From the NCBI RefSeq assembly GCF_000466405.1, contig NZ_KE952934.1:15671-79670 (forward strand): 64,000 nucleotides of DNA, written 5' to 3'. The DNA is from Atopobium sp. oral taxon 810 str. F0209. GTDB lineage: Bacteria; Actinomycetota; Coriobacteriia; Coriobacteriales; Atopobiaceae. A model generated the notes under the pieces. That model was given only the letters and a program-made list of their open reading frames with translations, had not been told where the DNA came from and did not search any database. The translations under genes and the position numbers were made by a program. Shown here one piece after another: positions 1 through 61,417 of the stretch (its first letter is position 1; each line of letters begins with the position of its first letter).

Positions 1-130
1 TGTTCGAAACTTGAACCATTTGCGGTTTGTGTTCTACCTATACTCGGTCTTTTGGCAGTCGGTACGAAGCAGAACGTGGCTTTTGACATCTAGCGTGAAA
101 TGAAGTGTGGCTTTTTGTTCCACGATGAGT
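1..130. repeat. intergenic repeat block at left edge
   Basis: No gene is visible in the first 182 bases. Bases 1-30 are identical to bases 54958-54987; both contain the core CGAAACTTGAACCATTTG followed by CGGTTTGT. Bases 73-88 (AACGTGGCTTTTGACA) and about 101-117 (GAAGTGTGGCTTTTT) are reverse-complement copies of the CAAAAGCCACGTT family that recurs near 50.4 and 54.6 kb. Two repeat families therefore lie side by side here, as they also do at 54.5-55.0 kb. The block sits downstream of the PSP1 gene, which is transcribed leftwards. Confidence 0.8.
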
Positions 131-10678: not shown

Positions 10679-11002
10679 GCCAATGCCCTACATACGACCC
10701 GAAGTAAGCTGCAACATCCGAAAAGGGTTCATCCTTCGGCGCACACTCACACAGATGGTTCATCCTTCGGTCTACCGAAAAAAATGACCAGCTGTTTTGT
10801 GTACTCCAACTCCGAAACTTGAACCATCTATTTGGAAATGCTCCGAAGCTTGAACCATCTGTGGGTGCAGTGCCCGACACCTGAACCATTTGTGGTTTGT
10901 GTCCCACCCGCGTTCCAAATAGAGAAGCTATCCCATCCGTATTCCAAATAGCGAAGCTTGCGCGTGCTAAAAATGGGCTCTGAACGTACGCGTTTGAGTA
11001 TC
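10679..11002. repeat. GAACCAT-family repeat cluster
   Basis: A 324-base gene-free spacer filled with short repeats. Words matching the GGTTCATCCTTCGG form occur at 10727-10739 and 10751-10770. Reverse forms CCGAAACTTGAACCATCT and CCGAAGCTTGAACCATCTGT occur at about 10812 and 10843-10862. The arms at 10751-10770 and 10843-10862 are reverse complements with two mismatches over 20 bases and enclose a 72-base loop. A further unit (CTGAACCATTTGTGGTTTGT, then TCCAAATAGCGAAGCTTGC near 10942-10961) matches a unit at 61.26-61.34 kb. There is no ORF of substance. The spacer separates a rightward gene from the end of leftward nhaA. Confidence 0.8.
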
Positions 11003-16625: not shown

Positions 16626-16689
16626 TGTTCATTGATGTGCTTTCGTTCGTCCCCACCCCACATCCGGTTCATGATGCACCTTTTTGTCC

Positions 16690-16770
16690 GCAGGCGGTTC
16701 AATATGCGCCCTTACGCCAATTTTTATCTGGGGTTTCTCGAGTCGTTTGGTACGGTTTTGAACCGTCTGC
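16690..16770. repeat. GAACCAT-family inverted repeat (GAACCG variant)
   Basis: GCAGGCGGTTCAA (16690-16702) and TTGAACCGTCTGC (16758-16770) are reverse complements with one mismatch over 13 bases. A related CCGGTTCATGATGC word lies just upstream at 16664. The right arm matches the copy near 36133-36150 (GACGGTTTTGAACCGCCTGT), so this variant has at least two copies in the window. Confidence 0.65.
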
Positions 16771-16987
16771 ATTAAATGGAAGACAACGGGTTCAAGAAGC
16801 ACCCTCAGTAACGAAGCGGCAGAAGACGCCTACCAAGAAAAAGGACAGCGGGACAGCATGAATCGTGCGCGCGAAGTCAGCGGCACTCCCCCACCCGCAG
16901 GTCTTGCACCAACACGCGCAACTCCAACTCAAAGCTTCTCCCATTCACGCGCACGGAAGCGGTACAAAACGGGTATAGTCAACTTGT

Positions 16988-17115
16988 CAGTTTCAGGGCG
17001 GGGTGAGATTCCCCACTGGCGGTGACGGGACTTATGTCCCCCAGTCCGCGAGCCGCGTTGCGGCAGACCTGGTGTAAATCCAGAACCAACGGTACAGTCC
17101 GGACGGAAGAAACGG
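16988..17115 (+). ncRNA. FMN riboswitch (RFN element)
   Basis: The conserved RFN core is present: AGGGCGGGGTGAGATTCCCC, then ACTGGCGGTGA, a GGGACTTATGTCCC hairpin, CCGCGAGCCGCG, GACCTGGTGTAAATCCAG and the closing AGTCCGGACGGAAGA. It senses flavin mononucleotide. The closing P1 helix can form from CAGTTTC (16988-16994) and GAAACGG (17109-17115). The 3' strand of P1 runs into the ribU Shine-Dalgarno (CGGAG, 17113-17117), and the ATG is at 17123. Ligand binding would therefore hide the ribosome site directly, which argues for translational control. No separate terminator hairpin fits before the ATG. Confidence 0.96.
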
Positions 17116-17122
17116 AGCCATC

Positions 17123-35961: not shown

Positions 35962-36294
35962 CGTCTAAGCGTGGCGCGCGTCGCAGACTGTAGGCGCGCG
36001 CCACAACTCCGCGCCATCCTCAACCCCACACCACTCGCGCAACCCCGCATCGCTCGCGCAGCCTCACATCACAAAGGGTTCATTTTTCTCCGATTCTCAA
36101 ATTGAAACCTGCGCATTTGCAATTTCGAACGACGGTTTTGAACCGCCTGTATAAATGAGCAGCAAAAGACAAGCAGATTGCTTATATTTCAGATGAACTT
36201 AAGAAAAGCTTAGGGAATCACATACCTCTTGACTAGGTTTGGGCACCATCATAGTGTCATCGACAAACAGCACAGGTGTTCAAGGAGGGACATC
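35962..36294. other. spacer with GC hairpin, GAACCAT repeat and candidate operator
   Basis: A 333-base spacer. A 10-bp stem (GTGGCGCGCG at 35971-35980, CGCGCGCCAC at 35995-36004) follows the OPT stop and may end transcription, though it lacks a U tract. Bases 36015-36065 carry irregular CTCGCGCA repeats. A GAACCAT-type repeat lies at 36076-36150 (GGGTTCATTTTTC and GGTTTTGAACCGCCTGT). CTTAAG-N5-CTTAGG at 36198-36214 resembles the TAAG repeats in front of the second response regulator. No gene is supported. Confidence 0.6.
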
Positions 36295-46433: not shown

Positions 46434-46514
46434 ACAGATGGTTCAAACTTCGGACTCCAGACGTGAAAAACACCAGGTCAGGATTTTATAAAAGTCGAAG
46501 TTTGAACCATCTGT
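46434..46514. repeat. REPIN-like element with perfect 19-bp arms
   Basis: ACAGATGGTTCAAACTTCG (46434-46452) is the exact reverse complement of bases 46496-46514, enclosing a 43-base loop. It is the best-preserved copy of the GAACCAT family. It lies in the 198-base convergent spacer between the dlt operon and yaaA. A partial ACAGATGGTT-like word (CAGATGGTTATAA) occurs just upstream at 46418. There is no U tract, so it is not a classical terminator. Confidence 0.85.
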
Positions 46515-54416: not shown

Positions 54417-55180
54417 TCAGCAATCCAAATCAAAACAGGTAACCAACAATCCAGTAACCATCAATCAAAGTTCCCACAAAGGGGCTGTATCAAAAGTAAT
54501 GCAGCCCTTTTTGGTGCGCCGAGCTGATGGGTAGCATGCTATCGACTTACTTCTGTAATGCTCTGCGTGTCAAAAGTCACACGCTCTTCCAAGCAGCGCA
54601 GTTCTGCTTATCAAAAGCCACGTTCCATTTCATCCTGCATGGCCACACGAATTCTCGGATCCAGACCAAAAGGGTTCCTAATTCATCATCTCGTGCGAAA
54701 AGGGTTCCTGATTCTCTTTTAGGACTACAAATGCGCAGGTAATTTTTTCGCCTGTGATGCTTTAGGAACCCTTTTCGACAGCGGGTGATGCTTTAGGAAC
54801 CCTTTTTAAAGTGGGAGCATGAACAACGCATTCCTGCTTGCCAAAAGTCAAAATTTAGATAGATTTCGATAGATGGTTCATTTTTCGAGTTATAGGAAAA
54901 TCTGACCTGCGCTTTTACGCTCGCTTACCTCGAAACTTGAACCATCTGTGAGTGTCGTGTTCGAAACTTGAACCATTTGCGGTTTGTATCCCACCTGCAC
55001 TCGGTTTTTTAGCTAACGCTCATTAATTTAACTAGCACACATGAAGTTTGATGCGATACGTATACATTTGTGTAGGATAATTCTTCTGTCAGTTTTCTAT
55101 ACTAGAAAAAAGTCATTTGAATACCTAGTTTTGCTGTATCCCAACCAGCATTTCAAGCGCGACACAAAGAAGGGATCCCT
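54417..55180. repeat. 764-base spacer packed with three repeat families
   Basis: No gene is supported. CAAAAGYCAC-type words occur at 54570, 54611-54633 and about 54841. AAAAGGGTTCCT occurs at 54668-54679 and 54698-54709; its reverse complement occurs at 54764-54775 and 54795-54806, the latter two inside the 20-base word GATGCTTTAGGAACCCTTTT repeated 31 bases apart. A GAACCAT-type inverted repeat has arms 54871-54889 and 54929-54947 (two mismatches in 19, loop 39). The 30 bases from 54958 repeat bases 1-30. The last 160 bases look like an ordinary AT-rich promoter region for the next gene. Confidence 0.8.
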
Positions 55181-61130: not shown

Positions 61131-61417
61131 GATACATAGGACAAATGCATGGCTGCTCGTATTTTGATAGATGGTTCGTTTCTCGAGTTGTAGGAAAAGA
61201 TGGTTCATTTCTCGGACTATAGAAAAATGTGACCTGCCCTTTTGTGCTTGCTCACCCCGAAGCTTGAACCATTTGCGGTTTGTATCTGTGGTTTGTATCC
61301 CATCTGTGCTCCAAATAGCGAAACTTGCATGTGCTGGAAAGCGTCTTTTAATATTTATATAAAGTTAGTCTATACTTACTTTTTGATATAAACATCTAGT
61401 AGCAGAATGCGCATTGA
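61131..61417. repeat. GAACCAT-family repeat cluster before the truncated ATPase
   Basis: Two forward copies (GATGGTTCGTTTCTCGAG near 61170 and AGATGGTTCATTTCTCGG at 61198-61215) face CCGAAGCTTGAACCATTT (61257-61274). The last is followed by GCGGTTTGT and by TCCAAATAGCGAAACTTGC near 61310-61328, which matches the unit at 10.88-10.96 kb. An AT-rich stretch (61345-61410) with no repeat or recognisable IS end leads into the broken ATPase gene. No gene lies in this stretch. Confidence 0.75.

Follow-up and report, generated by a model that had tools for sequence, protein, structure and literature searches.

The window, a 64,000-nucleotide stretch of a 1.95-Mb genome (G000) from a species of Olegusella whose sister is O. 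massiliensis KHD7, carries a perfect inverted repeat at 46434-46514, in which the 19-bp arm ACAGATGGTTCAAACTTCG occurs at 46434-46452 (+) and 46496-46514 (-) with zero mismatches. The first-pass annotation had noted this repeat and had placed it at the head of a dispersed, intergenic family of inverted pairs that behaves like miniature mobile DNA, a view that our analysis supports. The members found in the window, assigned to types A, B and C, are as follows.

1..23, + strand: type A right arm, cut by the window edge; the whole copy is G000:C2:15605-15692, partly N
10720..10893, + strand: type A array with arms at 10720 and 10751 (+) and at 10813, 10844 and 10875 (-), in 31-bp steps; core 10778-10798
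16659..16800, + strand: type B array with GGTTCA arms at 16665 and 16696, core 16719-16733, reverse arm 16751-16770 and a further arm 16785-16800
36070..36152, + strand: degenerate chimeric element with left arm AAAGGGTTCATTTTTC, core AATTGAAACCTGCGCATTT (36100-36118) and a type B right arm
46434..46514, - strand: type A element with perfect 19-bp arms and a 43-bp center; core CTGACCTGG (- strand) within 46465-46487
54668..54811, - strand: type C element with arms AAAAGGGTTCCT (54668, 54698) and AGGAACCCTTTT (54761, 54787); core GCGCAGGTAATTTTTTC at 54733
54869..54980, + strand: type A element with one outer right arm (54962-54980); core 54897-54916
61167..61276, + strand: type A element (61196-61276) with an outer left arm (61167-61185); core 61223-61243

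Immediately downstream of the type B array, an FMN riboswitch (RF00050, 104.9 bits) occupies 16985-17118 of the window.

The paired copies originally reported near 10751, 16690, 54869 and 61196 are all real. Two of them needed revision: the pair given as 10751-10862 is an array of three to five arms at exact 31-bp steps, and the pair at 16690-16770 represents a second subfamily, type B. Two stretches described as single arms proved to be parts of larger elements, that at 1-30 being the right arm of the copy cut by the window edge and that at 36133 the right half of the chimeric element (36072-36150). Allowing up to three mismatches, we found seven arms in the window, compared with 0.05 expected in shuffles, and 55 genome-wide, compared with 0 for a reversed-pattern control; the family is thus dispersed, at a copy number that chance does not explain.

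Anatomy and copy number

The type A unit is 81 bp long and directional, and consists of 19-bp arms and a conserved 43-bp center. The arms pair facing the center, at a fixed pitch of 62 bp in most pairs, and further arms can be found outside the pair at exactly 31-bp steps, all pointing inward. When copies are oriented, the center has the consensus gacTtncgAAAAAaTGACCtGCgnTTTTayGcttgcttACtt; the original description, in which arms were conserved while loops differed, was therefore wrong. The element at 46434-46514 folds at -24 kcal/mol (z -8.1), whereas a lone 19-nt arm has a predicted folding energy of 0 kcal/mol and forms no hairpin. Wobble mismatches in the arms (G.T on one strand versus the other) numbered 27 versus 24 and 41 versus 29 (p 0.19), and give no sign of selection on a hairpin formed by one strand. 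Such a lack of strand bias is what recognition of the arms as duplex would predict.

A search with a sequence-only covariance model identified 38 type A copies above 50 bits in G000. Weaker matches to the model led to type B. Its layout resembles that of type A, with 64 bp from GGTTC to GAACC, arms 30 bp apart and cores of TTTTTACCTGG or similar, and it often forms compound arrays. About 40 places in G000 carry this second subfamily besides the 38 well-matching type A copies, and the pattern GGTTCAN57TGAACC occurs 66 times, compared with 0 in the control. Occurrences of GGTTCA..TGAACC arms in other genera were rejected as chance singletons, mostly in coding sequence. The type C element at 54668-54811 combines AAAAGGGTTCCT arms with the core ATTACCTGCGC. 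With approximately 80 related elements genome-wide, the observation in the first-pass annotation is confirmed but underestimates the family; it missed the outer arms on their 31-bp grid, the conservation of the core, the existence of types B and C, and the occurrence of the core with other arms throughout the order. The elements explain a sizeable share of Olegusella intergenic DNA.

Placement and turnover in Olegusella

Among 60 relatives examined, the only carrier of type A is O. massiliensis KHD7 (G004; NZ_FLLS01000002.1), which is approximately 88-90% identical in nucleotide sequence to G000 over syntenic stretches and has about two dozen copies. Three other genomes placed in Olegusella (G001-G003) contain no type A copies. 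Gene context was taken from a simple codon-usage gene predictor, and every copy lies within a predicted intergenic gap, as had been proposed. In G000, 15/34 classified copies are in convergent gaps, 19/34 in codirectional gaps and 0/34 in divergent gaps, although divergent gaps make up 22/109 of the background in this comparison. In G004, 10/14 copies are convergent and, again, 0/14 divergent.

The location behind genes and the long stable hairpins would suit an RNA element, in which a 3´ hairpin would end transcription or stabilize mRNA and the core would be a loop motif. However, core orientation in codirectional gaps is random relative to transcription (10 with, 9 against), none of the 36 elements scanned (0/36) contains a terminator-like site, the wobble bias is absent and Rfam has no match at the elements. 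We therefore regard an RNA function as very unlikely. The preference for convergent gaps, the absence of divergent copies and the 31/62-bp phasing speak for the main rival to a mobile element, a host architectural or topological site. Here, the core would bind a conserved host protein such as gyrase, condensin or a nucleoid protein, and the phased arms would stabilize a wrapped complex; sites between convergent genes would absorb supercoils, and copies would persist because they are useful.

Comparisons between copies bear on both possibilities. The array at 10751 in the window is 93.5% identical to C16:37873 over approximately 170 bp, spanning the whole five-arm array with its outer arms, and the homology stops abruptly at unrelated flanks. 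G004 is empty at the syntenic gap, where the insert in G000 is approximately 300 bp and is bordered by CCTACAT and CCTACTT, an imperfect 7-bp repeat possibly due to chance; no consistent target duplication was found at arm ends in other genera. The type A element at 54869..54980 is likewise missing from its syntenic place in G004. Two observations, the single clean empty site and the near-identity of copies whose flanks are unrelated, thus support insertion, and recent duplicates with such sharp ends argue against a host site.

The retention of identical intergenic positions in two species, on the other hand, favors a host site. For 14 of 17 G004 copies examined, a G000 copy is present in the corresponding gap, a proportion derived from stretches picked around G004 copies, with the reverse proportion (G000 copies whose site is empty in G004) less well sampled. 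Of these shared-gap copies, only three are closest to their syntenic G000 partner and five are reversed in orientation, and most are more similar to a paralogue within G004. The pattern suggests that the sites are old and that their content was later replaced, converted or inverted.

A constant core with different arms across Coriobacteriales

When 140 genomes of the family were searched with only the core (AAANNTKACCTGCNNTTT), G089 stood out, in which the core is flanked by TAACATGCCCTTTG arms, and one match came from G029, in which it is flanked by GCACGCCCCAACGCAC and GCGTTCGACGTACTCG at 30-31-bp steps; in both, the arms are unlike those of Olegusella. A relaxed search of the order, with reading of the matches, added G302, G332, G344 and G181, from two further families. 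Core-like matches in G060, G071, G304 and G038 had no inverted arms and were taken as chance. The strict core AAANNTGACCTGSGSTTTT was found in 21/396 genomes of the class, from 15 genera and all Coriobacteriales, compared with 1 match for the reversed control; it was absent from 83/83 genomes of other orders of the class and from most Coriobacteriales genomes searched. The core therefore spans at least 15 genera and three families of the order.

Since these loci were chosen for the core, its conservation within the pattern is by construction, and independent support for a core class lies in matches being more numerous than for the reversed control, and in the flanking repeats. In 22 of 30 core-picked loci (17 genomes), we found a flanking inverted repeat scoring at least 25, where the 99th percentile at random positions in the same loci was 24, and several of these repeats are near-perfect over 27-37 bp. 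Between genera, 11/226 pairs of arms exceeded the 99% shuffle level (2-3 expected), and the arms are mostly unrelated; a weak outer TGGC-NN-AAAT motif common to some families is only suggestive.

Miniature repeats are usually defined by ends that stay the same; this family keeps its middle constant over at least 15 genera and lets its ends vary. The constancy of the core speaks for a host site, and the complete difference of the arms between genera speaks against one. An essential host site is also hard to square with the lack of type A in G001-G003 and of the strict core in most Coriobacteriales genomes. We consider a host site possible but rather unlikely. We suggest, if tentatively and as something short of probable, that the elements form an order-wide mobile or domesticated foldback class, in which a conserved machine acts on a constant core of approximately 19 bp and specificity comes from inverted arms that are lineage-specific and interchangeable. 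The two kinds of explanation are not exclusive, as a mobile element may have been domesticated. The fixed middle points to a new enzyme or host protein in bacteria that are common in the gut and vagina, and AAANNTGACCTGSGSTTTT with flanking inverted repeats provides a searchable signature for finding the responsible protein by co-occurrence.

Some genomes depart from this simple layout. G344 has approximately 24 AACCATGACCTGCGTTTT copies embedded among small hairpins (CTCCGCCGAAGGCGGAG, CGCGCTTCGCGCG; L214-L231) that together make up a larger mosaic, for which consistent symmetric arms were not found; the mosaic may be a derived member of the core class. In G089, the cores are flanked by CTACAGGTATACAGAGTTT / GTAGGCACAA repeat arrays with partly self-palindromic arms (L174-L176, L241), and in G089:C132 a series of 15-bp tandem repeats (CATGTTCAGACGCCACGTG...) abuts a duplicated core element (L177).

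Relation to known systems and candidate movers

The first-pass annotation had likened the family to REPINs moved by RAYT transposases. The resemblance is real in that both have short inverted pairs with two ends at a fixed spacing, occur extragenically in tens of copies, can fold, and are similar within a genome. REPINs, however, typically have a pitch of 71 bp, compared with 62 bp here, and conserved ends with a less conserved spacer (PMC3116915). In the present family, the center is conserved while the arms vary between genera, the arm is not a palindrome, the GTAG/CGTC tag is absent and the outer arms are direct repeats on a 31-bp grid. The Y1 transposase that the annotation had suggested as a check (PF01797; RAYT) gave no match at E<=0.001 in G000, which is 99.5% complete, and control genomes were positive. 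With no RAYT found, no hairpin in a single arm and a conserved center, the REPIN label fails.

A broader version, in which single-stranded DNA is moved by an HUH enzyme (RAYT or other) and the core is a nick site in the loop, would gain from how well the inverted pair folds. Rolling-circle origins, with a constant nick site at the center and variable, lineage-specific binding repeats around it, offer a parallel. The analogy goes no further, since the present elements are dispersed over the chromosome with no adjacent replication gene. Given the lone arm without a hairpin, the wobble pairs without strand bias and the lack of PF01797, the sole HUH family searched in G000, movement of this kind seems unlikely.

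The units also recall BIMEs and similar mosaic intergenic elements (E. coli BIME, Neisseria NIME) in being modular, with regularly spaced inverted and direct units and chimeric copies. Those units are alternating palindromes, whereas here asymmetric 19-mers point toward one central core. Bacterial MITEs agree in anatomy and copy number, being short (about 80-300 bp), non-coding, intergenic and multi-copy, with terminal inverted repeats, and here there is one empty site. The ends of MITEs are normally the conserved part, while in the present elements they differ between genera and an internal core of approximately 19 bp is constant; moreover, we know of no parent insertion sequence. The combination of constant core and variable arms appears to be undescribed, as no account of it was found in the open-access papers searched.

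Taken with the placement and turnover in Olegusella, we give about an even chance to a non-coding, non-autonomous, MITE-like mobile element that is copied and homogenized by a putative enzyme. In such a model, a lineage-specific protein would bind the inverted arms as duplex. The arms in Olegusella are often repeated on a 31-bp grid of three helical turns, and such steps, identical on both sides, would fit duplex recognition by a repeated protein. The constant center AAAANNTGACCTGSGSTTTT may be needed for processing or copying, and its constancy fits a shared processing or host-factor step. An enzyme acting in trans could place new copies of the unit at neutral positions between genes, mostly behind a gene, and the copies of one genome could be kept alike by conversion among them. 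Against the MITE-like reading, neither a transposase nor an autonomous partner was found in searches for PF01797 and PF00078, and the clean empty site is a single case. In addition, the conservation of sites between two species shows low mobility or retained function, and a MITE would not normally combine variable ends with a constant core.

The enzyme search in G000 covered these same two Pfam families. A reverse transcriptase was rejected as the mover, as G000 has only a broken, frame-split, intron-type gene (G000:C35:36455-37085; L148) and G004 has none. Plasmids and phages gave no match to the elements, and viral contigs contained no type A pair and two core matches, both without inverted arms. 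An orphan gene of 331 aa (G000:C17:160986-161978; L036:2984-3979) has a type A copy on each side, the two being inverted and from one subfamily. It was rejected as a mover, being absent from G004 and without a Pfam match. Weak elements also flank a 57% identical paralogue (C17:180178-181167), and the orphan gene looks like cargo.
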